A stretch of 64,000 nucleotides of DNA from Paracoccaceae bacterium (GTDB lineage Bacteria; Pseudomonadota; Alphaproteobacteria; Rhodobacterales; Rhodobacteraceae): positions 1 through 64,000 of the forward strand of contig JAFIEO010000021.1 in the NCBI GenBank assembly GCA_020832445.1. The letters are read 5' to 3'. A program made the position numbers and the translations under genes. The first letter of the stretch is position 1. Each line of letters opens with the position of its first letter. Shown here piece after piece: positions 40,014 to 55,999 of this stretch. The notes beneath the pieces are model-generated. The model was not told where the DNA came from, ran no database searches, and worked only from the letters and a program-made list of their open reading frames with translations.

Positions 40014-41903
40014 GTGAGCACGCGGCAAACCCCACCAGAACAGCCTGACCCGCAGGGATTGCCACGCATATTGTGGCCGTTTGTGTTCGGGCTTATTGCG
40101 CTGACGATCCTGTTGACCCAACAACCCGGTGAAACAGGGGAAACCAGAACGGTTTCCTACAGCGAAGTCAAAACCCTGATCCGAAATGGTGATGTGCGCG
40201 AAGCAACGCTTGAAGAAACGGCCATTGTCGCAGTGCTGCATGATCGCACGGCTGACGGGGCGACACGGCTGCGCGCGGTCACCCCGCAGCAGCCTGATCC
40301 GGCGCTATTGCCGCTGTTGGAAGATATGGGTGTGACCGTCACCGCCGAAGCCCCGCGTGCCCCGTCAACGCTGATTTGGTTCCTGCCGTGGATTTTGATC
40401 ATCGGATTCTATTTCTGGCTTAGCCGTCGCATGATGGGGGGCATGGGCGGTGGTTTTGGCGGCGGGGTGCCCGGCGGGATGGGGGATTTCCTAAGCGGGC
40501 GGTCTGCGAAACCGACCAAACCCACCCGCAAGGTGACCTTTGGCGATGTTGCAGGGCAGGATGAAGCCAAGCGCGAAGTGTCGGAACTGGTTGAATTCCT
40601 GCGCGATCCCGACCGTTTCCAGAAAGTTGGCGCAACCGTGCCGCATGGCGTGCTGCTGATGGGACCGCCCGGCACCGGCAAGACGCTTCTGGCGCGCGCA
40701 TTGGCAGGCGAGGCTGATGTGCCGTTCTTTTCCACATCCGGGTCTGAATTCGTGGAAATGTTTGTGGGTGTTGGCGCCGGGCGGGTGCGCAAGATGTTTG
40801 AAGCCGCGCGCAAACAGGCCCCTGCCATTATTTTCATTGACGAGCTGGACAGTATCGGGCGCACGCGCGGCACCGGTCTGGGCGGTGGTCATGACGAACG
40901 CGAACAGACGCTGAACCAGATACTGGCCGAACTTGACGGCTTCAGCGCACGCGAAGCAGTCGTGGTGCTGGCTGCCACCAACCGCCCCGATGTGCTGGAC
41001 CCTGCATTGCTGCGCCCCGGTCGGTTCGACCGCCATGTCACCCTTTCGCTGCCCGACAAGGACGCACGCCGCGCGATTTTGGATGTGCATATCAAGGATC
41101 TGCCGCTACGCCATGATGTCGATCTGGATCAGGTTGCCGCTGGAACGCCCGGCTTTTCCGGGGCGGATCTGAAGAACCTGCTGAACGAGGCCGCGATCAC
41201 TGCCGCGCGCCGCCATGCTGCCGACATCACCCCCGACGATCTGGATGAGGCCCGCGACAAGGTGATGATGGGCACCGTGCGCACATTGGCCATCCAGCCT
41301 GATGAGCGGCACAGGCTTGCGGTCCATGAAGCCGGACATACCGCAGCGGCGTTTTATAACCCCGGCGGCGATCCGATCTACAAGGTGACGATCATTCCGC
41401 GCGGGCGCAGCCTTGGCAGCACGCATATGCTGCCCGCCCATGACCGCCATACCCTGGCCGAGGCGTATTTGCGCACGCAACTGGTCACGCTGCTGGCGGG
41501 ACGGGCGGCGGAGAAACTATTGCTTGGCTCGGTCAGTTCGGGCGCTGATGATGATATACGCCGCGCCACAGCACTGGCGCGATCGATGGTGGCGCGCTGG
41601 GGGATGGACCCTGATCTGGGGCCGGTCGATCTGCGCGACAGCGAAGATCACCCGTTTCTGGGTCAGCAGATCGCCCAGCCCAGAAGTTTTTCTGATCAAA
41701 CGGCAACGCGGGTTGATCAGGCGGTGATGGCGCTGCTGAATACAGCCGAGACAGCGGCCATCCGGCTGATCGAGGAGCACCGCGACCAGATCACGCAACT
41801 TGTCGCCCGCCTAGAGGCTGAAGAAACCCTTGATCTTGACGCCATCCGCGCCTGCCTTGACCCTGACACCAAGATCACGCCTTTCGCGAAACACCGCACA
41901 TAA
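40014..41903 (+). CDS. ftsH: Accessory ATP-dependent zinc metalloprotease FtsH
   Basis: Membrane-anchored AAA+ protease. 629 residues: two membrane segments ([13 protein letters not shown] and [17 protein letters not shown]) around a periplasmic part, Walker [15 protein letters not shown] near residue 217, Walker [16 protein letters not shown] region [18 protein letters not shown], and the M41 zinc site HEAGH near residue 440 with the distal Asp in [12 protein letters not shown]. The start is GTG with GAGGAGG in front. The lone position, short tail and pairing with phaC suggest a paralogue of the housekeeping ftsH, which normally follows tilS. It is followed by phaC after 17 bp. Confidence 0.9.
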
Positions 41904-44039: not shown

Positions 44040-45218
44040 ATGATCCGTAGGATAGCTTGTGCTCTTACATTTCTGGCATTCAGCATGTGCGCATCATTTC
44101 CCGGTGCTCTGGCCAGGGAGTTGCATATATTAACCTCTTACGAGGCAGATTTCGTTTCGCGTTTTCTGGAAGATTTTTCGAACAGGCACCCTGAAATTTC
44201 AGTATTCCACTTAAACAAGAATACGAATGCCGCCGTGGATGAACTGATACGCGGGAATGCCCGGCAGTTTGACATTTTCTGGGCGTCATCATCGGAAGCA
44301 TTCGAACTGCTGGACGAATATGCGCGGCTGACAGATCTTGGATTCGGCATGCATGCCGATTTTGCCTTTTCTGCCGTTGGCTGGGCGTGGAAAAGCGGCA
44401 CGGATATGTCCCCCCCGTATGATTGGAACGACCTTCTTGACCCGGATTATTCCGGCCGGATTACGATGTCGCATCCCATGCGATCGGGCACGACCCATAG
44501 TCTGATTGAAACGATATTGCAGGATCGCGGCTGGGAATCGGGCTGGGCGTATTTGTTGCAACTCGCGGGCCAGCTTAAAAGTATCTCTGCCAGGTCTTTC
44601 GGTGTGCTGGAGGGGCTGGGTGATCGACATGATATTGGTCTGACGATTGATTTCCTTGCATTGCAGCGCGCCGATCAGAATGTCTTGTTCCGCTATGGCC
44701 GCCCGATCATTATCAGCCCCGCGCGGGTTGCCGCGCTGCAAGGCGGCAAAAACCCTGACGCGGCCAGACTATTCATTGATTTTCTTCTTTCGGTTGACGG
44801 GCAACGCATTCTTCTGCGCCCTGATGTCCGGCGCATACCCATTGATGATGACATCAGGGCCGAGCTTACTGAAAGTCTTATCCCGGAAATGCGCGCCGCT
44901 TTGACGTTTAGCTGGTCGCGCTACGATCCGGAACTGGCCCGAAAGCGCTATTGGCAAGTAAACGAGATATTCAATATCTTCATTGCGCGTGATTTCCTGC
45001 GCCGGCGCGACCTGTGGCGGCGGTTGAACGATCTGGACCCAAGGGCGGTGCAGGACCGGGCCACGATTGCGCAAATCCTGACCCATATGCCTGTTACTGA
45101 AGCAAGCTTGCGACTGGCCGTGCCGGGGGGCAATACGCTGCTGTCATGGCAAGCTGAATCCAGACGCCTGCTGGATGCGGCAGAAGCGCGTTTGCACAAT
45201 GCCGAACAACGACGATGA
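44040..45218 (+). CDS. Periplasmic binding protein of a Pgt-like sensing system (PgtC-like)
   Basis: 392 residues. An N-terminal signal peptide (LTFLAFSMCASFPGALA) is followed by a binding-protein fold: LHILTSYEADFVSRFLEDFS, DIFWASSSEAFELL, YDWNDLLDPDYSGRITMSHP and RSGTTHSLIETIL. RSGTTH and the SARSFGVLEGLGD/IDFLAL blocks recur in the transporter binding protein at 48665 (TERSFGVPDAV, IDFFGLA), so the two are paralogues and may bind the same ligand. The gene overlaps the kinase gene by 4 bases (ATGA), and the size matches PgtC (about 397 residues) of the phosphoglycerate system, which feeds ligand status to a sensor kinase. A sensing role is inferred from context. Confidence 0.78.
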   Translation: MIRRIACALTFLAFSMCASFPGALARELHILTSYEADFVSRFLEDFSNRHPEISVFHLNKNTNAAVDELIRGNARQFDIFWASSSEAFELLDEYARLTDLGFGMHADFAFSAVGWAWKSGTDMSPPYDWNDLLDPDYSGRITMSHPMRSGTTHSLIETILQDRGWESGWAYLLQLAGQLKSISARSFGVLEGLGDRHDIGLTIDFLALQRADQNVLFRYGRPIIISPARVAALQGGKNPDAARLFIDFLLSVDGQRILLRPDVRRIPIDDDIRAELTESLIPEMRAALTFSWSRYDPELARKRYWQVNEIFNIFIARDFLRRRDLWRRLNDLDPRAVQDRATIAQILTHMPVTEASLRLAVPGGNTLLSWQAESRRLLDAAEARLHNAEQRR

Positions 45219-47251
45219 GGCGCTCCATTTCCATCTGGACCCGCCTGTTCTTGGGGATCGGGGCAATCATTATTATCGCGGCAGTCATCCTTGGGGCAGG
45301 GATGGCCCTTGTGCTGCGTGCCGAACGCGACTTTGCCAGTCTGGCAGAGGACCGGATTCCCCGCGTTGCCGTCGCGGGCGAGCTGGCAGAGTTTACGGGC
45401 GAATTGGCCGCGCTTTCGACGGCCATCATGGCCGAGGGCCAGAAACCTGACGGGCAGATGCAGCCCTTCGTTCACCGGATCGAAAACACCGCCGCCGGTC
45501 TGGCAGATCTTCTGCGTGGTCCGGTCCTTTTCGACACACCGGAGGCTGATACAATGGCCATCGCCGAAGTGGAGTTGCGTGACAGTTTGTCGAGGGTCAT
45601 CGAGGCGTCGATGGAAAGCGCGCGGTTGTCATCTGTCTTGCAACAGGCGGATGAGCAGCTGCGCTGGACTCAGGTCGATGTGCAGGATCAGGCAAGTGCG
45701 TTGCTGGATGATATGTCATTCAATATGGATGCCAGCTTGCGTATTCTGACGACCGCGCCGGACACCGCGCAACTGGGCGCAGTTGAACGCGAGCTGGGGA
45801 TAGAGCGGCGCCAGCGTGACAGGCTGCAACGTCTGGCGTCAGAGGCAGCGACGCTGGCTGCGCTGCTTTTGCAGGCCCGTGCGTCCGGCAGTGTTGTTGC
45901 GCTGGAACAGGTTGAAATACTGGGTCAGGACACGCTTGATATGATCGCGCTTGCGCGCACCGATTTGCCCGATCGTATTGAAATAATGTTCCTGCTTCAG
46001 TCGCTGGACAATCTGGTGGAACTTGCCCAAGGCCCCAACAGCATTTTTGTACTGATGCATGAACAGATCCAGTTGCGCGAACAGATCCTGGATGCGCTTG
46101 CCCGTGCGCAGGACAGTCTTGGAACATTGCAAACGCAGCTGACGCATCTGGGGCAGGCAGAACGCCTGGCGGCGCAAACACGCGCTGATGATGCCGCTCG
46201 GCGTATGCTGCGCGGTGCGACCGGGCTGGGCGTGCTGATATTCGCAGGTGCCGTATCTGGCGCGGCAATCCTGTTTTTCTTTGTGCGCCAGCGGATCGTC
46301 CGGCGTATCCGTGAACTGACGGACGATCTTATGCATATTGCATCGGTCGAATTGTCATCATTGCCCAAAGCCGGGCATGGCGCAGATGATTTCGCGCGAA
46401 TGGCGCATGCTGTCGATATGTTCCGCACTGCGGTTCATGATCTGAAGACAACGCATCTTGAGTTGTCGAATGAAGTGCGCGAAAGGCGACTTGCCGTCGA
46501 GCGGCTTGAACAGACCCAGCGCGAACTGGTTCAGGCGGGTAAAATGGCAGCCCTTGGCCAGATGTCTGCCGCCATCAGCCATGAGATCAACCAGCCCCTT
46601 GCCGCCATGCAGCACCGGCTTCATGGTTTGCGACAGGCCCATGCGGAAACAGGGCCGGCATTAGACCGCATAGAGGCGCTGATGCGCCGGATCACGCGAA
46701 CGATAAATCATTTGCGCCGAATTGCCCGCCGGGCAGAATACCGGCGTGATACTGTTTGTATGCGCGAGCCGCTGAACGCCGTTCTGGACCTGCTGGCACA
46801 TCGTTTGAAAGAAACCGGCGCCAGCATTCATATTGCTGGGAATGTCAACGAAATGCGCGTTGAAGGGGACGAGATTCTGATCGAGCAGGTCTTGCTGAAC
46901 ATTCTGTCCAATGCGCTGGATTCGGTCGAGGAAGCGGATGGCGGGGACGGTCGCATTGTCGTCGCGCGCAAGGCCGATTCCGGTGCTGTTTTGTCAATCA
47001 CAGATAACGGGGTTGGCCTGCGCGGCCTGAGTGGCGCTGCATTGATAGACCCATTTTTTACCACTAAAGACGTTGGCAAGGGCCTTGGTCTGGGATTATC
47101 CATCGTGTTCAATGTGATGCAGGACATGGGCGGGCATCTTAGCATCATGGCGGGGGACAAAGGGGGGGCAAAAGTGCTGTTGCGCTTTCGTCAGGGCGGG
47201 GGAGAGTGTGGAAATGACGCGCAAAATGACGGTAATGCTGATCGAGGATGA
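45215..47251 (+). CDS. Membrane sensor histidine kinase (PgtB-like)
   Basis: 678 residues. A membrane segment at 10-32 (FLGIGAIIIIAAVILGAGMA), a long helical periplasmic domain to about 340, a second membrane segment (GVLIFAGAVSGAAILFFF), HAMP, then the kinase core: SAAISHEINQPLAAMQ with phospho-acceptor His near residue 456, N box LLNILSNALDSVEEAD, ITDNGVGL, and GKGLGLGLSIV. The architecture and size resemble PgtB and TorS-type sensors that read a periplasmic binding protein. It overlaps the upstream binding-protein gene (ATGA) and the downstream regulator by 38 bp, so the three are tightly coupled. Confidence 0.88.
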   Translation: MRRSISIWTRLFLGIGAIIIIAAVILGAGMALVLRAERDFASLAEDRIPRVAVAGELAEFTGELAALSTAIMAEGQKPDGQMQPFVHRIENTAAGLADLLRGPVLFDTPEADTMAIAEVELRDSLSRVIEASMESARLSSVLQQADEQLRWTQVDVQDQASALLDDMSFNMDASLRILTTAPDTAQLGAVERELGIERRQRDRLQRLASEAATLAALLLQARASGSVVALEQVEILGQDTLDMIALARTDLPDRIEIMFLLQSLDNLVELAQGPNSIFVLMHEQIQLREQILDALARAQDSLGTLQTQLTHLGQAERLAAQTRADDAARRMLRGATGLGVLIFAGAVSGAAILFFFVRQRIVRRIRELTDDLMHIASVELSSLPKAGHGADDFARMAHAVDMFRTAVHDLKTTHLELSNEVRERRLAVERLEQTQRELVQAGKMAALGQMSAAISHEINQPLAAMQHRLHGLRQAHAETGPALDRIEALMRRITRTINHLRRIARRAEYRRDTVCMREPLNAVLDLLAHRLKETGASIHIAGNVNEMRVEGDEILIEQVLLNILSNALDSVEEADGGDGRIVVARKADSGAVLSITDNGVGLRGLSGAALIDPFFTTKDVGKGLGLGLSIVFNVMQDMGGHLSIMAGDKGGAKVLLRFRQGGGECGNDAQNDGNADRG

Positions 47252-48512
47252 TCAAGACCTGCGCGAGGCAACCTGCGAAACGCTGACGGGCGCCGCCTTT
47301 TCTGTCCACGCATTCGGACATGCACAGGCGGCACTGGACACCCTGAATACCATCGCGCCCGATGTAATCCTGTGCGATATGCGCCTGCCCGGAATGTCGG
47401 GACTGGACCTGCTGGATGTCGTGCGCCAGCAGGCCCCCGATATTCCCTTTGTGCTGATTACCGGACATGGTGATGTGGGCAGCGCGCTTCGTGCCATGCG
47501 GGCGGGCGCGCATGATTTTCTGGAAAAGCCCTGCCAGCCCGAACTGGTCATCGATATCTTGCGGCGTGCTGTTGCCATGCGCAGGCTTTCGCAGGAAAAC
47601 GAGGCGCTGCGCGACAGGCTTGCAAGCACAATTGCCCCCGAAGACCGGCTGCTTGGCAAGGCACCTGTCATGGCAGACCTGCGCAGGCGGGTGGCTGCGC
47701 TGGGTGGTTTGCAGGTTGATTTATTGATTGCGGGCGAAACGGGCACTGGCAAGGAACTGGTTGCGCGCGTCCTGCACGCCATTTCTGCGCGGCGCAAGGG
47801 GCCGTTTGTGGCTGTGAATTGCGGCGCGCTGAACCCGGCAGAAATTGATCGCGACCTGTTCGGGGACGCATCTGTTATGGGACGGGTGGCGCGCGCGGCG
47901 GGTGGCACGCTGTATCTTGACGAACTGGAAGCCATGCCAGAGGCTTTGCAGGTGCGTTTGCTAAGGGTTGTGGATGCACGCGAAATATCACCGCTTGGAC
48001 TGCCGCCACAGAAGCTTGATCTGCGCATTCTGGGAAGTGTCAAAGGGGACCCGTCGCAGCTTGTTGCGCAAGGGAAGCTGCGTGCCGATCTGTTTCACCG
48101 TTTCAATGCGGGGGCGCTGCGCCTGCCACCCCTGCGCGAGCGCACTGGTGATGCGGAAATGTTGCTGGAGCATTTTGTCGCCGAGGCCGCAGAACGCCAT
48201 GACCTGCCGGTGCCCGACATCTCCACCGTGCTGCGCAGGCAAGCAGGCTGGTATGCGTGGCCCGGCAATGTCAGGGAGGTGCGAACAGTTGCAGAGCGTC
48301 TGGTAATCGGCCTGGACATCTCGCTTGAAGAGGCGATGGAAGAGCGCGCGGTTGTGTCCGAAGGGTTTGATGCTGCCATGGAAGGCTTCGAATCGCGCCT
48401 GCTTCAGGCCGCTTTATTGCAGGTGGGGGGGCGGAAAAATGACGCCGCTGCGCTTTTGGGGATACCCAGAAAACGCCTTTATTTGCGCCTGCGCCATCAC
48501 GGGTTGGGGTGA
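47214..48512 (+). CDS. NtrC-like response regulator lacking the GAFTGA motif (PgtA-like)
   Basis: 432 residues: receiver domain with phospho-acceptor Asp55 (VILCDMRLPG), Lys in FLEKPCQPE, AAA+ domain with Walker A GETGTGKELVAR near residue 178, and C-terminal Fis-type helix-turn-helix (GGRKNDAAALLGIPRKRLYL). Where sigma-54 activators have the GAFTGA loop, this protein reads DLFGDASVMGRVARAAGGTL, so the loop is deleted. Such regulators usually work with sigma-70 polymerase. ATG 47214 is preceded by GGAGAG; a GTG at 47208 is also possible. Candidate binding dyads lie directly downstream at 48512-48553. Confidence 0.88.
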   Translation: MTRKMTVMLIEDDQDLREATCETLTGAAFSVHAFGHAQAALDTLNTIAPDVILCDMRLPGMSGLDLLDVVRQQAPDIPFVLITGHGDVGSALRAMRAGAHDFLEKPCQPELVIDILRRAVAMRRLSQENEALRDRLASTIAPEDRLLGKAPVMADLRRRVAALGGLQVDLLIAGETGTGKELVARVLHAISARRKGPFVAVNCGALNPAEIDRDLFGDASVMGRVARAAGGTLYLDELEAMPEALQVRLLRVVDAREISPLGLPPQKLDLRILGSVKGDPSQLVAQGKLRADLFHRFNAGALRLPPLRERTGDAEMLLEHFVAEAAERHDLPVPDISTVLRRQAGWYAWPGNVREVRTVAERLVIGLDISLEEAMEERAVVSEGFDAAMEGFESRLLQAALLQVGGRKNDAAALLGIPRKRLYLRLRHHGLG

Positions 48513-48553
48513 ATGGGTCGTATCTGACCCATTTGAAGGGTCAGGAATGACCC
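48512..48553. promoter_or_regulatory. Tandem dyads, candidate operator of the ABC operon
   Basis: AATGGGTC-N6-GACCCATT (48512-48533) is followed by GGGTCA-N4-TGACCC (48538-48553). Both contain GGGTC and GACCC half-sites, and equivalent half-sites repeat at a 23-bp period, about two helical turns. They lie 25-66 bp upstream of a putative -35 element, a usual place for an activator such as the preceding response regulator. Confidence 0.6.
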
Positions 48554-48577
48554 AAAAAAATTAATAAAAACATATGT

Positions 48578-48606
48578 TTGCAACTTTTTTTGGCATTGCG
48601 CATAGT
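48578..48606 (+). promoter_or_regulatory. Candidate sigma-70 promoter of the ABC operon
   Basis: TTGCAA (48578-48583), a 17-base spacer and CATAGT (48601-48606) match four of six consensus bases at each element. No -24/-12 TGGCAC-N5-TTGCA pattern is found. Downstream, gcattgc-gaggag-gcaatgc (48614-48633) forms a hairpin in the leader. Confidence 0.4.
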
Positions 48607-48664
48607 GACTGTGCATTGCGAGGAGGCAATGCGCACCCTGACTTTCAGGCCAAGGGAGGGCCCC

Positions 48665-49984
48665 GTGAAAAAACTTATGTTTACAACCGCGCTTGCGCTG
48701 GTTTCCAGTGCTGCCGCGCAGGCGGATACTGTTGTCGTCGTGACATCGTTTCCCCAGGATCTGACCAATCCGTTCAAGGCCGCATTTGAAGCGGCGCACC
48801 CGGAACACACGCTTGAAGTGGTAAGCCGCAACACCAATGCGTCCGTGGCTTACTTGCAGGAAACCCGCAGTTCCAACACCACAGATCTGTTCTGGGCCTC
48901 GGCGCCCGATGCGTTTGAGGTGCTGAAATCCGAAGGGTTGCTGGCCAATGTCGGGATCAGTGTCGATGGTATCCCCGATGCAGTGGGCGGCTATCCGATC
49001 AATGACCCGGACGGGTATTATTACGGCTTTGCCGCGTCCGGCTACGGGATCATGTACAACACACGGTATGTGGCAGCAAATAATCTGCCCGTCGCGCAGG
49101 AATGGGATGACCTGATGCGCGCGGAATATAACGGGCATGTGGCGATGTCTTCGCCCTCGCGTTCGGGCACGACCCACCTGACCGTGGAAACCCTGCTGCA
49201 AGGTGATGGCTGGGAAGAAGGCTGGGCCAAGTGGAAATGGATCGCGGGAAACATGAACACGGTGACCGAACGCAGCTTTGGTGTGCCTGATGCTGTGAAT
49301 TCCGGATCTACCGGTTTCGGGATCGTGATTGATTTCTTTGGTCTTGCGTCAAACGCATCGGGTTTTCCGGTCGAACTGGTGTATCCAAGTCTGACCGCGA
49401 TTGTTCCGGCAAATATTGGCATCGTTGAAAACGCACCCAATGCGCAGGGTGCGCAGGATTTCGTGGAATTCGTGCTGTCCCCGGAAGGCCAGCAAGTGCT
49501 GTTGAATCCCGCAATCATGCGTCTGCCTGTGAACCCAGAGGTGTATGCAGACGTGCCTGAAGGGTTTCCGAACCCGTTTTCGGAAGATTTTGCGCCGGGG
49601 GCGATTGCCTTTGATGTCGATATATCGGGCGCGCGCTACAACCTTGTAAATTCGATGTTTGACGTGATGATCACCTACCGGCTGAATGATCTGCGCGCCG
49701 CGGTTGCGGCTGTTCAGGCCGCTGAAGCCGTGCATGCGGACAGCGACAATGCAGAAGCGCTGGAACTGATCGCAGAAGCCCGCGCATTGGTCGAAGCACT
49801 GCCCATCACCGAAGAGCAATCGCTGGACCCCGCTTTTGCCGGTGTATTCCAGATTTCGCGCAGAAGTGCGGACATCGCTGTTGTCGGCCGGCAGGCCGAA
49901 GTTGAACAGGCATGGGATGGTTTCACCGTCGCCAACTATGCGAAAGCCAAGGAACTGGCTGACCGCGCAGCGGCTATGCGCTGA
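48665..49984 (+). CDS. ABC transporter periplasmic binding protein (AfuA/Fbp superfamily)
   Basis: 439 residues from a GTG preceded by AGGGAGG. Signal peptide KKLMFTTALALVSSAAAQA. The fold is that usually named iron(III)-binding protein, but the paired Tyr residues that bind iron in FbpA are not evident at the matching place, which reads ERSFGVPDAVNSGS. SPSRSGTTHLTVETLL is shared with the regulatory binding protein at 44040. In this superfamily AfuA binds sugar phosphates. A phosphorylated organic ligand is inferred from this and the neighbours. The C-terminal 60 residues add a helical extension (EALELIAEARALVEALP). A stable hairpin follows the stop. Confidence 0.85.
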   Translation: MKKLMFTTALALVSSAAAQADTVVVVTSFPQDLTNPFKAAFEAAHPEHTLEVVSRNTNASVAYLQETRSSNTTDLFWASAPDAFEVLKSEGLLANVGISVDGIPDAVGGYPINDPDGYYYGFAASGYGIMYNTRYVAANNLPVAQEWDDLMRAEYNGHVAMSSPSRSGTTHLTVETLLQGDGWEEGWAKWKWIAGNMNTVTERSFGVPDAVNSGSTGFGIVIDFFGLASNASGFPVELVYPSLTAIVPANIGIVENAPNAQGAQDFVEFVLSPEGQQVLLNPAIMRLPVNPEVYADVPEGFPNPFSEDFAPGAIAFDVDISGARYNLVNSMFDVMITYRLNDLRAAVAAVQAAEAVHADSDNAEALELIAEARALVEALPITEEQSLDPAFAGVFQISRRSADIAVVGRQAEVEQAWDGFTVANYAKAKELADRAAAMR

Positions 49985-49990
49985 ACCTTC

Positions 49991-50016
49991 TGCCCGCCCT
50001 GAAATACGGGCGGGCA
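49991..50016 (+). other. Intercistronic hairpin
   Basis: tgcccgccc/gggcgggca, a perfect 9-bp stem with an 8-base loop and no T tract, lies between the binding-protein and permease genes. Such hairpins commonly protect the upstream message or attenuate read-through, so that binding protein exceeds permease. Confidence 0.6.
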
Positions 50017-50038
50017 TCACTAGCCCAGGGAAAAAATC

Positions 50039-51778
50039 ATGTCAGATATGCCACAACCGGCCCGCGGTGCCGGACGTTTCACGCTGTTCCCCCGCCTGTC
50101 CGGTGTCGCAATTACAGGTATCTTGATTGCGATCTTTCTGATGGCGTTTCTGGTCCTTCCGGTCATTCAGGTGATCTATGTTGCGTTTCTGGACGCACAG
50201 ACCGGGGCAATGACGCTTCAGAACTTCCGTGATTTCTTCAACACATCGCTGTTTCGCGAAAGTTTTGTGAACTCGTTCTATGTGTCGGCCATGTCGGTGG
50301 TGTTTGCGACAATTATCGCCTTGCCGCTGGCTTATATCACGACGCGTTTCAATTTTGCGGGCACTGCGATTATTCAATCGCTCGGGTTTATTCCGCTGAT
50401 CATGCCGCCTTTCGTCGGTGCTGTCGCGATGAGTCTGCTTTTCGGGCGCAACGGAACAGTCAACTTGTTGCTGGATCAGTATTTCGGCTTCAAGGTGCCC
50501 TTCATGGAAGGGTTGAATGGCGTGATATTCGTGCAGTCGATCCACTATTTTCCATTCATTCTGATCAACCTGTCAGCGTCACTTCGCAATATCGACCGGT
50601 CCATGGAAGAAGCTGCGCAGAACCTTGGGTCATCGGGTATGCGCATGTTCCGGCGCATCGTGTTTCCATTGGCCATGCCCGGCTATCTGGCCGGTGCCGC
50701 TTTGGTGTTCATCAAGGTGTTTGACGATCTGGGAACGCCGTTGTTGTTGAACGTCAACACGATGCTGGCCCCGCAGGCTTACTTACGCATCACGGGCGTC
50801 GGCATCAATGATCCGATGGGTTATGTGATATCCTTCATTTTGGTCGCCTTCTCGATCTTTGCGCTTTGGACATCTTTTCTGTTCATGCGCGGCAAGGATT
50901 ACGCGACCGTGCAAAAGGGCGGGGGCGGGCTGTCAAAGCGTGATCTTGCCCCGCGCGAGAAACTGGTCGCATGGGCCGTTATCCTGTTCATTCTGGCGCT
51001 GGTTCTGGCCCCGCATTTCGGTCTGATGCTGCTGGCATTTGGCACGATATGGTCATTTTCACCACTTCCCGACGGGTTCACGTTGCAGCATTTCGGAACT
51101 GTTTTCACGCAGTCATCGCAATATATCTGGAACACGATCCTTTATGCGGGGTCGGCGGCCATTATCGATGTCATCCTTGGCGTCGCCATCGCCTATATCG
51201 TGCTGCGCACCGGGCTGATCGGGCGCAAGTGGCTTGACTATATGGCCACGGCAGCGCTTGCGGTGCCCGGTGTGGTTCTGGGTATCGGGTATCTGCGCAT
51301 GTTCCATGGGGTTCAGTTGCCCTTCGGACTTGGCCAGATGTCAAGTTTCTGGGGGCTGATCATTGTGGCACTGGCGGTGCGGCGCCTGCCATATGCGCTG
51401 CGGGCGTGCATGGCTGCCCTGCAACAGGTTGCCCTGTCGCTGGAAGAAGCCGCCGAAAGCCTTGGCGCGAATAAATCCAGCACTGTGCGGCGCATCGTGG
51501 TGCCGCTGATGACGGGGGGGATTCTTGCCGGGTTTGTCACCAGTTTTGCGACTGCGGCTGTGGAATTGTCTGCAACGATCATGCTGGTGGGCAGGGCATC
51601 TGACGCGCCGCTCGCCTATGGGATCTACCTGTATATGCAATCACCCGCGGGGCGCGGGGCAGGTGCGGCACTTGGCATTCTGGCCGTCGTTATTGTGGCG
51701 CTGGGCACCTACCTGTCGCAGCGCATCATCGAAAAAGACCGAAACCGCCGGGCTTCTGCCCCGGGCGCAGAGCAATAA
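50039..51778 (+). CDS. ABC transporter permease, fused double domain (AfuB/FbpB type)
   Basis: 579 residues with about twelve membrane helices in two homologous halves, so one gene supplies both permease domains. Each half carries an EAA loop that contacts the ATPase: EEAAQNLGSSGMRMFRRIVF near residue 200 and EEAAESLGANKSSTVRRIVV near residue 475. A cytoplasmic linker (KGGGGLSKRDLAPREKL) separates them. This is the usual form in the Fbp/Afu/PhnS group. The ATPase gene starts 11 bp downstream. Confidence 0.9.
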   Translation: MSDMPQPARGAGRFTLFPRLSGVAITGILIAIFLMAFLVLPVIQVIYVAFLDAQTGAMTLQNFRDFFNTSLFRESFVNSFYVSAMSVVFATIIALPLAYITTRFNFAGTAIIQSLGFIPLIMPPFVGAVAMSLLFGRNGTVNLLLDQYFGFKVPFMEGLNGVIFVQSIHYFPFILINLSASLRNIDRSMEEAAQNLGSSGMRMFRRIVFPLAMPGYLAGAALVFIKVFDDLGTPLLLNVNTMLAPQAYLRITGVGINDPMGYVISFILVAFSIFALWTSFLFMRGKDYATVQKGGGGLSKRDLAPREKLVAWAVILFILALVLAPHFGLMLLAFGTIWSFSPLPDGFTLQHFGTVFTQSSQYIWNTILYAGSAAIIDVILGVAIAYIVLRTGLIGRKWLDYMATAALAVPGVVLGIGYLRMFHGVQLPFGLGQMSSFWGLIIVALAVRRLPYALRACMAALQQVALSLEEAAESLGANKSSTVRRIVVPLMTGGILAGFVTSFATAAVELSATIMLVGRASDAPLAYGIYLYMQSPAGRGAGAALGILAVVIVALGTYLSQRIIEKDRNRRASAPGAEQ

Positions 51779-51789
51779 GGAAAAACGCC

Positions 51790-52827
51790 ATGAAAAAAGC
51801 TGGCATCCGCATTGAGAACCTTCACCTGTCCTTTGGCGATACAACCGTTCTGGCCGGGATAGATATGGAGATCCACCCCGGTGAATTCTTTGCCTTTCTT
51901 GGGCCGTCGGGTTCAGGGAAATCCACGCTTCTGCGCGCCATTGCAGGGTTCGGGCCGCGCCCGAAGGGGCGTATCCTGATAGATGGAAAGGATATTGCAG
52001 ATCTGCCACCGTGGAAGCGCAACGTTGGCATGGTGTTCCAATCCTATGCGCTGTGGCCGCATATGACCGTGCGCCAGAACGTAGCGTTCGGGCTGGAAGA
52101 ACGCCGCATGCCGCGCGCCCAGATTGGCCCGAAGGTCGAGGCCGCGCTGGAGTTGGTGGGATTGTTGCATCTGGCTGAACGCATGCCGTCGCAATTGTCT
52201 GGCGGGCAGCAACAACGGGTTGCGCTTGCTAGAACCGTGGCAATCGAGCCGCAGGTGTTGCTGCTGGATGAACCCTTGTCGAACCTTGATGCGGCCTTGC
52301 GCGTCCAGATGCGGCGCGAACTTTTGTCACTTCAGCGCAAACTGGGTCTGACAACAATTTTCGTGACGCATGACCAGGAAGAAGCAAACACCACATCAGA
52401 CCGTATGGCGGTGCTGGATGGGGGGGTTATTCAACAGATCGGCACCCCACAAGAACTTTACGATACGCCGGTCAACGGCTTTGTCGCGGGGTTCTTGGGA
52501 ACCGCGAATGTGCTGTCGGGGCATATGAATGACGGGTGCTTCGTGACCAAAGGTGGCAACCGGCTGGCCGTTGACAACTACAGGGACAGCGCGCGCCGTA
52601 TCGTGCTGCGCCCGCAAAGTGTTTCCCTGACCGAAGAAAAGCTTGGGTCCATAGCTGGGAAAGTCACCCACCGCGAGTTTCTGGGCAGCCAGATCCGCTA
52701 TCTTGTAGGAACCGCAGATGGCGAGATTATCGTGGATACCTTGCATCATGCGGGGCAGTCCGGGCATGCGATTGGTGCTGATGTCATGCTGATGATCGAC
52801 AGCCAAAGCGCGTCATTGCTGGACTGA
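51790..52827 (+). CDS. ABC transporter ATP-binding protein
   Basis: 345 residues that power the adjacent permease. Walker A GPSGSGKSTLLR near residue 38, Q-loop VFQSYALWPHM near residue 82, signature LSGGQQQRVALART near residue 138, Walker B VLLLDEPLSNLDAALR, and H-loop VTHDQEEA near residue 195. The C-terminal 110 residues form a TOBE-like domain as in FbpC, PotA and MalK, which may be regulatory. It lies in operon with permease and binding protein, and the phosphatase gene follows after 2 bp. Confidence 0.92.
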   Translation: MKKAGIRIENLHLSFGDTTVLAGIDMEIHPGEFFAFLGPSGSGKSTLLRAIAGFGPRPKGRILIDGKDIADLPPWKRNVGMVFQSYALWPHMTVRQNVAFGLEERRMPRAQIGPKVEAALELVGLLHLAERMPSQLSGGQQQRVALARTVAIEPQVLLLDEPLSNLDAALRVQMRRELLSLQRKLGLTTIFVTHDQEEANTTSDRMAVLDGGVIQQIGTPQELYDTPVNGFVAGFLGTANVLSGHMNDGCFVTKGGNRLAVDNYRDSARRIVLRPQSVSLTEEKLGSIAGKVTHREFLGSQIRYLVGTADGEIIVDTLHHAGQSGHAIGADVMLMIDSQSASLLD

Positions 52828-52829
52828 AC

Positions 52830-53393
52830 ATGGCAGCGCTTTGGTTCATAAGGCATTTCCGGACCCCGTGGAATGCAGAGGGTCGCTTGCAGGGCCGGCG
52901 TGATATTGCGCTGGATGAGCCGCTGTGCAGCGGTGATCAGGCCGCGCTTGCGCATAATCTGTCGGCGCTTGACGGAATGGTGTTCGCCGAAGTCTGGACA
53001 TCGCCCCTGAAACGGGCGCGACAGACCGCAGCGCTTCATGGTCATCACACCGCCCTGTCGCAAGAGGCGCTGCTGGAACTTGATTTCGGCCCGTGGGAAG
53101 GGCGCACATGGACAGAGCTTCACGCCGCCCACCCGGATCATTGGAAAACCTCGCCCGGCAAGCTGCCGCTGGGCGAGCCGTTTGATGCGTTCGAACAGCG
53201 CGTAAGTGCAACGCTGAACGCTGTCTGGAACCGGTCCGGCCCACCGGTTCTGGCGTTTGGTCACGGGGCTTGGGCAAATTGCGCACAGGCCGTCATGGCA
53301 GGTGCAGCGGCGTCCAGAATGAATGAATGGAATACCAGCAATGGCGCGCTTGTTGTGCTGCGCCCCGCGTCAATCAGAAAGGCCCTTCCATGA
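52830..53393 (+). CDS. Histidine phosphatase (phosphoglycerate mutase-like) family protein
   Basis: 187 residues of the branch-1 histidine phosphatase superfamily. FIRHFRTPWN near residue 6 contains the catalytic Arg-His; the usual Gly after RH is Phe here. TSPLKRARQTA near residue 57, ELDFGPWEGRTW near residue 88 and FGHGAWANC near residue 147 supply the remaining Arg, Glu and second His. It removes phosphate from small molecules or acts as a mutase. It begins 2 bp after the ATPase gene and overlaps gph by 4 bases, so it is part of the transport operon and probably acts on the imported compound. Confidence 0.85.
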   Translation: MAALWFIRHFRTPWNAEGRLQGRRDIALDEPLCSGDQAALAHNLSALDGMVFAEVWTSPLKRARQTAALHGHHTALSQEALLELDFGPWEGRTWTELHAAHPDHWKTSPGKLPLGEPFDAFEQRVSATLNAVWNRSGPPVLAFGHGAWANCAQAVMAGAAASRMNEWNTSNGALVVLRPASIRKALP

Positions 53394-54094
53394 CAGCAAT
53401 CGTATTTGACCTTGACGGCACACTGATTGACAGCGTTCCTGACATCCACAATGCAGCGGTGCGGATGCTTGCAGACGAAGGGCGTGCCCCGCTGGATATG
53501 GCCAAGATACGCAGTTTCATCGGCAATGGCGTGCCCGCTCTTATCTCGAAGATCATGAATGAAATCGATGAGAACCCCGAAGATCATGCGCGCCATGCCA
53601 TTCTGGAGCAGTGCTTTATGCGGCATTATATGGCCGCGCCCGCGGTGCTGGGCCGTCCATTCGACAATGTGCAAAACGCATTGGAAGCGCTGACGGGAAC
53701 GGGTTTCAAACTTGCAGTTTGCACAAACAAGCCAGAGGGAATTGCCAGACAGATACTTCAGGATCTTGGTATCGACTCATATTTCAAAACTGTGATCGGG
53801 GGCGATAGCCTGTCTGTGCGAAAGCCCGACCCGGCGCCGTTACAGGCGGCAATCAATCAAGCGGGTGCCAAAACGGCAATCTATGTGGGCGACAGCGAAG
53901 TTGATAGTGAAACTGCCTTGGCCGCAAATGTGCCGTTTGTTCTGTTTACGCAAGGGTATCGAAAGGGTCCGATAAGCGAAATCCACCATGAAGCCGCATT
54001 CCCGGATTTCACGCAGTTGCAAGGTATCATCCAGACGCTGCGGGATAATGTGTCCGGCCACCGCGATGACAGCACACTTCCCCGCAGAAGTTAG
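53390..54094 (+). CDS. HAD phosphatase, phosphoglycolate phosphatase (Gph) like
   Basis: 234 residues. Motif I FDLDGTLIDSVPDI at residue 5 with both catalytic Asp, motif II VCTNKPEG near residue 110, motif III Lys in VRKPDPAPLQAAI near residue 145, and motif IV YVGDSEVDSETA near residue 168. An alpha-helical cap lies between motifs I and II, as in 2-phosphoglycolate phosphatase. The ATG overlaps the upstream phosphatase stop (ATGA). Gph is the closest named family, which fits a locus handling a C2 or C3 phosphate, but HAD specificity is hard to read from sequence. Confidence 0.85.
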   Translation: MTAIVFDLDGTLIDSVPDIHNAAVRMLADEGRAPLDMAKIRSFIGNGVPALISKIMNEIDENPEDHARHAILEQCFMRHYMAAPAVLGRPFDNVQNALEALTGTGFKLAVCTNKPEGIARQILQDLGIDSYFKTVIGGDSLSVRKPDPAPLQAAINQAGAKTAIYVGDSEVDSETALAANVPFVLFTQGYRKGPISEIHHEAAFPDFTQLQGIIQTLRDNVSGHRDDSTLPRRS

Positions 54095-54275: not shown

Positions 54276-54797
54276 ATGACACCGGCCTACCGTGCCCATA
54301 TCGGATGTGCCCGTTTTTGCGTGCTGGCAACAATCGGGCCGGAAGGCACAGATTGCAGTCCCCGCGGTGATGAAGGGCCGGTTGTCACCATTCACGATGA
54401 TCGCACCCTTCTGCTGCCGGACTGGAAAGGCAATGAACGGATTGATTCACTTCGCAATATTGTCCGCGACGATCGTGTCAGTCTGTTGTTTCTGATTGCG
54501 GGGTCCAATGTTGCGATGCGGGTGAATGGCAGGGCGAAGGTGACAGCCGATCCTGAAATTGCGCAAAGGTTTGAACGTCAGGCAAGGTCGCCCCGCTCGG
54601 TTATCGTGATCCGGATTGAACAGGTGTATTCACAATGCGCCCGCGCGCTTATCCGATCCGGGCTTTGGACGGACCACCACGACACGACATCCCTGCCAAC
54701 CGTCGGGGATATGCTGAACGAGATCACATCAGGCGAGTTTGACGGCGCACGCTATGATGCTGAATGGCCGGATCGCGCTGCCCGCACCATGTGGTAG
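54276..54797 (+). CDS. PPOX-type FMN flavoprotein, N-terminus interrupted by a stop
   Basis: Pyridoxamine 5'-phosphate oxidase-like split barrel: ARFCVLATIGPEGTDCSPRG at residue 12, LLPDWKGNERIDSLRNIV near residue 46, and RIEQVYSQCARALIRSGLW near residue 112, typical of the MSMEG_1061-like FMN family. From ATG 54276 it has 173 residues. Homologous-looking sequence continues upstream (DLHAHYGQPAEASQIKVTQF) and reaches TTG 54189 (PSWIESL) behind GGAGAGAG, but a TAA at 54213-54215 breaks that frame at codon 9. Either the gene is inactivated or translation restarts at 54276 without an obvious ribosome site. Confidence 0.7.
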   Translation: MTPAYRAHIGCARFCVLATIGPEGTDCSPRGDEGPVVTIHDDRTLLLPDWKGNERIDSLRNIVRDDRVSLLFLIAGSNVAMRVNGRAKVTADPEIAQRFERQARSPRSVIVIRIEQVYSQCARALIRSGLWTDHHDTTSLPTVGDMLNEITSGEFDGARYDAEWPDRAARTMW

Positions 54798-55300: not shown

Positions 55301-55999
55301 TCAACTCGGTTCGAGTTTCTCTTGGTCTGCGACCATTCTGCCCTGATCTCGGGCGTCCTCTGCTTTGGCATCAGGATCTGGTGCAGGGGGTGTGACAGCC
55401 AAACGGTCCAGGTAAGACTGAAGGACTTCACCTGTCAGCACCCCCGTTTCAAGCAGGCAAACAAGGTCCTTTTCGTAATCCGCCCGACGCGAGGCACTTG
55501 GAACCCGCGACATTGCTGCCGCACCACCAGTGCCATGGATCGTCAGCAAATGCGGAATAGCCCGACCAGTTATGTATCCTGCAATCGCATGTCCACATTC
55601 ATGAACGGCAATCTGCCAATGCAGTGATTTATCGATGAATGGGCGGCGGTTGCGGATTGCCTTCTGCAGATCATCAACCACCATTTCTAGCTTGTTCTGC
55701 CGTGCGATCGCACGGGCATCGCGTACAGTGGCGGCAACTTCGGCGCCGGTCATTCCCGTCGCTGCCAGAGCTGCCTTACTCAGATCGACCCCCTCAAGAT
55801 CCCTGTGCAAATGCCAGCGCTATGCTTGCGGCATAATCTCTTGGGTGGGGTGGTCGATCGAGACCAACCGGTCGAACTGGCCCGGCCGGCGCAGGGCTGT
55901 GTCGGTTTTGTAAAGGTGATTTGTCGCAGCGACAACGACCACGCCTTCCAGCCCGTTGAACCCATCCAGGCAATCGAGAAAGCCGCCGATGACAAGGTC
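55301..55999 (-). pseudogene. Decayed AAA ATPase-M41 peptidase (FtsH-like) gene
   Basis: One minus frame reads LDGFNGLEGVVVVAATNHLY, ALRRPGQFDRLVSID (sensor 1 and arginine finger of an AAA domain), a TAG at 55820-55822, then LSKAALAATGMTGAEVAATV and VHECGHAIAGYITGRAIP with the M41 zinc motif HECGH. The Walker A and B half is missing, and the protease domain appears shortened after DYEKDLVCLL. A 169-residue piece from 55810 could be translated, but it lacks a complete domain. The 5' end stops at the junction with the GH42 remnant near 56000. Confidence 0.7.

Follow-up and report, generated by a model that had tools for sequence, protein, structure and literature searches.

The block of eight open reading frames (ORFs) described here occupies positions 44040-54094 of a 64,000-nucleotide stretch of DNA from a Paracoccaceae bacterium (GenBank assembly GCA_020832445.1, contig JAFIEO010000021.1, positions 1 to 64,000), which was analysed as a whole and is referred to as the window. 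All eight ORFs are open and lie on the + strand. Our results suggest that the block is probably a ligand-induced organophosphate scavenging system, in which Pgt-type sensing is combined with an ATP-binding cassette (ABC) importer of organophosphates. What is new is that, in a clade of ten loci that includes the window (the window clade), both the sigma-54 contact loop of the regulator and the sigma-54 site of the promoter have been lost, with the palindromic operators retained. We further speculate, in a proposal that may well not hold in full, that this is the first ABC importer for phosphoenolpyruvate (PEP), phosphoglycerate or phosphoglycolate, working under a portable Pgt-type sensor module that is paired with ABC, PgtP-like major facilitator superfamily (MFS) and TctCBA transporters, and that the window-clade regulator has moved from sigma-54 to housekeeping promoters with its operators kept. 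Searches of the open-licence PubMed Central literature turned up no description of this block and none of an ABC importer that takes up these acids.

Organization and conservation of the block

Gene classes were assigned by Pfam and NCBIfam profile matches (Table 1). The first three genes, a sensor-type binding protein, a histidine kinase and an NtrC-type regulator (the sensor trio), overlap by 4 bases between sensor and kinase and by 38 bases between kinase and regulator. Genes for a second binding protein, a double permease and an ATPase follow, with gaps of 54 bases (binding protein to permease), 11 bases (permease to ATPase) and 2 bases (ATPase to histidine phosphatase), and the two phosphatase genes at the end overlap by 4 bases. 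The second binding protein has a GTG start with ggaggg upstream. A first-pass annotation had described eight genes on one strand with overlaps or short gaps, comprising a Pgt-like sensing trio, an importer and two phosphatases. Strand, order and classes are as it described, but the gap of 152 bases between the regulator and the second binding protein, which contains the control region, is not short. PgtB is the best NCBIfam match of the kinase, at 181.5 bits far under the cut-off of 1000 bits, and the kinase is therefore kin of PgtB and no equivalog. No MFS gene is present among the eight, and the ABC importer genes are found there instead.

The six-gene core from sensor to ATPase is complete in 32 loci, the window counted, of which 27 are alphaproteobacterial. 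Several of these blocks are close kin, and they are not 32 independent events. Five (L118-L121, L123) come from genomes that share only the phylum with the window, and the same gene order in such distant genomes is therefore not due to chance. Among the named hosts are Roseinatronobacter, Natronohydrobacter, three Paracoccus species, Maritalea, Pseudochrobactrum, Chelatococcus, Ensifer, Shinella, Aminobacter and Azospirillum. A search with the first binding protein gave some match in 65 of the 149 family genomes, and five of them (G000, G002, G010, G089, G091) have two matching binding proteins 4.4 to 4.7 kb apart. A profile search, in which full-length members score above 220 bits and ordinary binding proteins score below 125 bits and end by profile position 330, found full-length members in 15 of 385 genomes of the class and 14 of 398 of the phylum, the two samples overlapping. 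The order is interrupted between regulator and importer by other genes in L081 and by an opposite-strand histidine phosphatase in L118. In 28 more cases a binding protein is followed by permease and ATPase but not immediately preceded by a full trio, although some of these cases are at contig ends or have part of the trio; ten importer-only loci had no common enzyme among selected neighbours. L062 and L065, from 1.2 Mb genomes of the class, have an importer without a sensor, and in L062 a Gph-like haloacid dehalogenase (HAD) below the curated cut-off adjoins it. L122 holds a copy of the block with kinase and regulator broken into several frames.

In two blocks, L041 and L121, the contig stops at the ATPase or shortly beyond it, which leaves 30 in which the tail can be assessed; L049 is also left out of one neighbour count. 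At least one phosphatase is present in 17 of the 30, a histidine phosphatase (counted when adjoining the ATPase or directly after the HAD gene) in 15 and a HAD in eight. The order is histidine phosphatase then HAD in the window, L009 and L010, and the reverse in Azospirillum and Chelatococcus. The first-pass annotation had proposed to examine the conservation of all eight genes; the conserved unit is the six-gene core, and the phosphatases are an optional tail that varies in kind and order. The window HAD passes the TIGR01449 PGP_bact equivalog cut-off (219.8 bits vs 180), and a second copy, 41% identical, is found elsewhere in the genome. The sequence RHFRTPWN is present in the histidine phosphatases of five loci (window, L009, L010, L045, L083) and RHGET in eleven others listed. 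Assignment of the window histidine phosphatase as the alpha-ribazole phosphatase CobC (TIGR03162) was rejected, at 106 bits against an equivalog cut-off of 162.9. Directly upstream of the block on Paracoccus denitrificans plasmid 1 (L045:5434-11750) are a second ABC importer, an inositol-monophosphatase-type gene, a MurR/RpiR regulator and the acid phosphatase AphA.

Predicted phosphate-binding loops in the two binding proteins

The blocks RSGTTH and RSFGV, which the first-pass annotation had picked out in both binding proteins, are seen in their alignment. In the published descriptions the phosphate contacts of P5PA include T37, S147-G148-T149 and S183 (PMC8427247), and those of AfuA include S37, S148-G149-T150 and their neighbours (PMC4546632). 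In profile alignments, for which the residue numbering offset was worked out by hand, these positions fall on T57, S167-G168-T169 and S204 in the second binding protein and on the equivalent residues in the first, T57 and S167-G168-T169 answering to Ser37 and Ser148-Gly149-Thr150 of AfuA. The three phosphate-contacting loops are kept in both window proteins; the first-pass annotation had suggested such a comparison of pocket residues.

This conservation extends to the relatives. In an alignment of 138 proteins we compared 58 permease-linked proteins with 36 kinase-linked ones, the latter taken from loci other than those with PgtP, another carrier or Tct. S167, G168, T169, R203 and S204 are kept in all 58 and all 36, T57 in 57 of 58 and all 36, R166 in 58 and 34, and H171 in 57 and 33, AfuA and P5PA having Ser and Tyr at the places of R166 and H171. 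Judged from sequence, a phosphate ester is a likely ligand. RSGTTH and RSFGV correspond to phosphate-binding loops and are largely present in sensors beside carriers unlike PgtP too; they therefore mark 'organophosphate' and not 'phosphoglycerate'.

In a tree of 67 proteins, 20 of the 21 sensor proteins fall in one group (94/81) and 37 transport proteins with two unassigned proteins fall in another (100/99), while the remaining sensor, from L055, groups with PgtC proteins (98/90). The tree would fit an old duplication of the binding proteins, which have been kept together, the order of duplication being uncertain with a midpoint root and long branches.

Transporter partners of the sensor trio

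The trio is found beside PgtP in 11 fetched loci (74-78% identical to Plesiomonas PgtP, Plesiomonas itself counted), beside an MFS carrier sharing 25-29% identity with PgtP in 12 loci, beside TctC and TctA genes in L101 and L102 (TctB was scanned in L101) and beside a different ABC set in L144. Six further loci with the trio (L132-L137) had no recognised carrier. The trio is a portable module, and the idea of the first-pass annotation that an ABC importer replaces PgtP is borne out in the sense of a modular swap. It follows that the presence of the trio alone does not fix the ligand. L129 has a copy of the trio on either side of a single PgtP and pyruvate kinase, and in L101 (8917-16816) and L102 a trio with an intact GAFTGA is followed by the Tct genes.

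Pyruvate kinase adjoins PgtP in nine of ten assessable fetched loci (L051, L052, L075, L124, L125, L126, L129, L131, L138), L074 being the one where it does not and L127 being left out at a contig end. It was recognised within three genes in none of the 12 loci with carriers of 25-29% identity. In two ABC blocks, L048 (Pseudochrobactrum) and L044, it follows the histidine phosphatase, the two kinases being 53% identical to each other. Its presence beside PgtP and these two ABC blocks favours acids of the PEP and phosphoglycerate type and does not prove them. The comparison is suggestive and no census, 12 of the 13 matches of one search having been fetched (the thirteenth was already included) along with a chosen part of another.

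Loss of the sigma-54 loop and site

The window regulator keeps its phospho-acceptor, Walker A and Walker B motifs, and its GAFTGA loop is deleted. The loop is missing in all ten loci of the window clade, nine of whose regulators have a Walker A-like motif (not found in L044). In the regulator tree the ten loop-less proteins form one clade (100/99) next to a loop-bearing Maritalea protein (94/91), so that the loss most simply took place inside this system. PgtA also has no GAFTGA loop, apparently through a separate loss.

The -24/-12 consensus for sigma-54, as used for scoring, has 11 bases. No locus of the window clade has a site above 8 of these (0 of 10; single-base shuffles, p >=0.12), and in the window no such site was found at the target promoter, the best having 7 of 11. 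Where the adjacent regulator has a full loop (GAFTGA, GSFTGA, GAFTNA or GAFTSA), which is the case in 25 ABC loci, a site of 9-11 bases is present in 23 (p <=0.024); this count leaves out L122, with its broken genes, and L110, L111 and L115, in which the regulator does not adjoin the importer. L118 and L123, also with full-loop regulators, have sites of 8 bases (p 0.147 and 0.047), and in L120 the site is farther from the called start than in other loop-keeping loci. The two Tct loci also have sigma-54 sites. In the gap between regulator and binding protein, L043 and L046 have sequences, TTGGCACCTTGC and TTGGCAACCTGC, that look by eye like shortened sigma-54 sites and are possible relics of the lost promoter.

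Directly 3' of the window regulator gene are two 16-base palindromes with half-sites GGGTCR and TGACCC and an N4 spacer, which we take as putative operators (Table 1). Nowhere else in the 4.08 Mb assembly does the exact tandem pair occur; single sites lie at two other places, and a reversed control gave no match. With one mismatch allowed, the window has six strand-matches at four places vs 1.08 expected. The best operator site stands above shuffles (p <=0.01) in 20 of 21 loci (L055, p 0.067), a significance that is partly circular as the consensus was drawn from the tested regions, and L098, L106, L109 and L112 have weaker best sites, with 8 or 9 of 12. Downstream of the operators, TTGNNN-N17-CAYAST is present at a kept place in six of ten window-clade loci, the window counted (fixed-geometry listing). 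A scan of the window clade with a generic sigma-70 consensus was no better than shuffles (p 0.05 to 0.97), so the proposed promoter is put forward solely for its kept position.

Table 1. The eight genes of the block and the proposed control elements, in window coordinates
Feature	Position	Strand	Basis and remarks
PgtC-like sensor-type periplasmic binding protein, 392 aa	44040..45218	+	SBP_bac_6; kinase gene directly next; groups in tree with 19 other sensor proteins (94/81)
PgtB-like histidine kinase, 678 aa	45215..47251	+	HisKA and HATPase_c (Pfam)
NtrC-type response regulator	47214..48512	+	Response_reg, Sigma54_activat, Fis helix-turn-helix; alternative GTG start 47208
Putative regulator operator 1, GGGTCGTATCTGACCC	48515..48530		Palindrome
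Putative regulator operator 2, GGGTCAGGAATGACCC	48538..48553		Palindrome, 23 bases downstream of operator 1
Tentative sigma-70-type promoter TTGCAA-N17-CATAGT	48578..48606	+	Position kept in six of ten window-clade loci
Transport-type periplasmic binding protein, 439 aa, C-terminal extension	48665..49984	+	SBP_bac_6
Fused double permease, 579 aa	50039..51778	+	BPD_transp_1, two stretches (Pfam)
ABC ATPase, TOBE domain, 345 aa	51790..52827	+	ABC_tran
Histidine phosphatase, 187 aa	52830..53393	+	His_Phos_1; RHF replaces RHG at active site
Phosphoglycolate-phosphatase-type HAD phosphatase, 234 aa	53390..54094	+	HAD; TIGR01449 PGP_bact above cut-off

Outside the block, a PPOX flavoprotein gene at 54276 was dropped as a member; the gap is 181 bases, and the gene was not recognised in L009. 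Farther along, a short ORF on the - strand (55301-55810) with an HECGH motif resembles by eye a fragment of an FtsH-type peptidase, and an FtsH-like ORF, also judged by eye, is present in the window at 40014-41903.

Proposed function and ligand

In the periplasm, the first binding protein would capture a phosphate ester from outside the cell and activate the kinase, as described for PgtC and PgtB, and the kinase would phosphorylate the NtrC-type regulator. The regulator would bind the two GGGTCR-N4-TGACCC palindromes and, having no sigma-54 contact loop, would activate a housekeeping-type promoter from which the genes for the second binding protein, permease, ATPase and phosphatases are expressed. 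The ester would be taken up by the ABC complex together with the second binding protein, and one or two cytoplasmic phosphatases would release phosphate from it. That the ligand is some phosphate ester can be proposed with good confidence. That it belongs to the small phosphorylated acids, of the PEP, phosphoglycerate or phosphoglycolate kind, is a tentative assignment for which the case is close to evenly balanced; it is favoured because of the pyruvate kinase and Gph neighbours and the kinship to Pgt.

Several observations weigh against this interpretation. At positions 224, 225 and 250 PgtC proteins mostly have S-Y-Y, where the proteins of the ABC loci have F, F or L, and N or varied residues, and the ligand may therefore differ from that of PgtC. 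The PgtC proteins beside PgtP themselves vary at T57 (T in 9 of 12) and H171 (H in 4 of 12), and the sensors beside carriers 25-29% identical to PgtP carry most of the motifs, with D at G168 in 10 of 12. Pyruvate kinase is found at only two of 30 ABC blocks, and the contrast in its occurrence is biased: the search started from a PgtC whose own locus carries pyruvate kinase, the matches were chosen, and a single family accounts for ten of the 12 other-carrier loci. A TctCBA transporter is a further partner of the trio. No recognised phosphatase adjoins 13 of the 30 ABC blocks; in seven of these (L123, L106, L098, L067, L068, L103, L046) the next gene is something else, among them a regulator in L123, a LacI-type regulator in L106 and elongation factor G in L098, L046 being judged by annotation. 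In the window histidine phosphatase the active-site motif is altered, with Phe at the conserved Gly.

Other ligands have to be considered. The first-pass annotation described the importer as Afu-like, and an importer of hexose or heptose phosphates like AfuABC, under Pgt-type control, would share the phosphate loops; the nearest solved proteins include AfuA (4r72) and P5PA (6wce), and L144 has the sensor trio beside a different ABC set. The resemblance of the binding proteins stands, but membership of AfuABC is rejected by the published residue motif. H205, D206 and E229 are each described as required for binding in AfuA (PMC4546632), and neither binding protein keeps H205, whose place has Ile or Asp depending on the alignment, or E229, whose place has hydrophobic or other residues; an Asp perhaps corresponds to D206. 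No sugar enzyme was recognised among the identified neighbours of the 32 blocks, many neighbours not being identified, and we consider a sugar phosphate importer unlikely. Import of pyridoxal phosphate (PLP), a vitamin B6 phosphate, as by P5PA, seems very improbable. P5PA is the solved protein closest to the sensor, the block of P. denitrificans has a pyridoxal-phosphate-synthase-type gene after it, and the PPOX flavoprotein gene that follows the window block is also near the block in L010; but neither P. pantotrophus (L083) nor L009 has a recognised gene of this kind after the block, His203 of P5PA, the counterpart of AfuA His205, is not kept, and pyruvate kinase and Gph would be left unexplained.

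The names of the profiles and of the database records point elsewhere. For the window importer proteins the best NCBIfam matches are phnS2, PhnU2 and PhnT2, L106 has a phnS2-type protein near the cut-off (346.9 vs 392.75), and genes similar to the phnS2 type flank the block in L109 and L112, as might be expected of an importer of 2-aminoethylphosphonate or another phosphonate. All three window proteins are below the curated cut-offs (107.6 of 392.75, 169.5 of 593.25 and 366.2 of 457.7), so that membership of PhnS2/PhnU2/PhnT2 (TIGR03261/3262/3265) is rejected, and no phosphonate enzyme was recognised among the identified neighbours, where phosphatases, which cut P-O bonds, are common. We regard a phosphonate as quite improbable. 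A ferric-iron importer, as suggested by the record name 'iron ABC transporter permease' and by 8x1a, the solved chain closest to the second binding protein, which was deposited under an iron(III) transporter name, is scarcely credible. A tyrosine pair is the ligand motif of FbpA-type ferric-iron binders, and its place has FF or FL in the block proteins (7w3w alignment; 138-protein alignment), which agrees with the expectation of the first-pass annotation that they are not ferric-iron binders and led us to reject iron import. The 8x1a chain itself carries the AfuA-type HD in the alignment, and the phosphatases and the Pgt-type trio do not fit an iron importer. In the annotated records of relatives, names such as this one stand beside generic ones such as solute-binding protein. 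If organophosphate scavenging is indeed the function, a widespread block imports phosphorylated metabolites whole, supplying carbon and phosphorus at once, and these annotations need changing.

Comparison with known systems

PgtABC-PgtP is the phosphoglycerate system of Salmonella. The block resembles it, in the comparison loci of Plesiomonas and Proteus, in that a transporter of small organophosphates adjoins a binding-protein sensor, a PgtB-type kinase and an NtrC-type regulator, which follow one another in the same order. Unlike that system, the block has as carrier not PgtP but an ABC importer that brings a second binding protein of its own, the window regulator keeps Walker A, for which the tested PgtA proteins gave no match to the pattern used, and the binding proteins differ at the three positions given above. 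PgtP is described as importing 2- and 3-phosphoglycerate and PEP, and PgtC as sensing 3-phosphoglycerate (PMC10715179, PMC11077982).

AfuABC and P5PAB share with the block the conserved phosphate loops of binding proteins that are among the nearest solved ones. However, the residues for sugar and ring are not kept here, the second binding protein has 439 residues against the 321 of the AfuA chain, and two-component control genes are part of the same block. The NtrC of Rhodobacter capsulatus, described as having no GAFTGA and as acting at sigma-70 promoters (PMC10274813), is a precedent for loss of the loop together with use of sigma-70, and the window regulator is likewise of NtrC type without the sigma-54 contact loop. 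It is a different regulator, whose relatives keep the loop together with sigma-54 sites, and the switch can therefore be traced within one system. This makes the block a clear case for tracing the joint move of a regulator and its promoter away from sigma-54.

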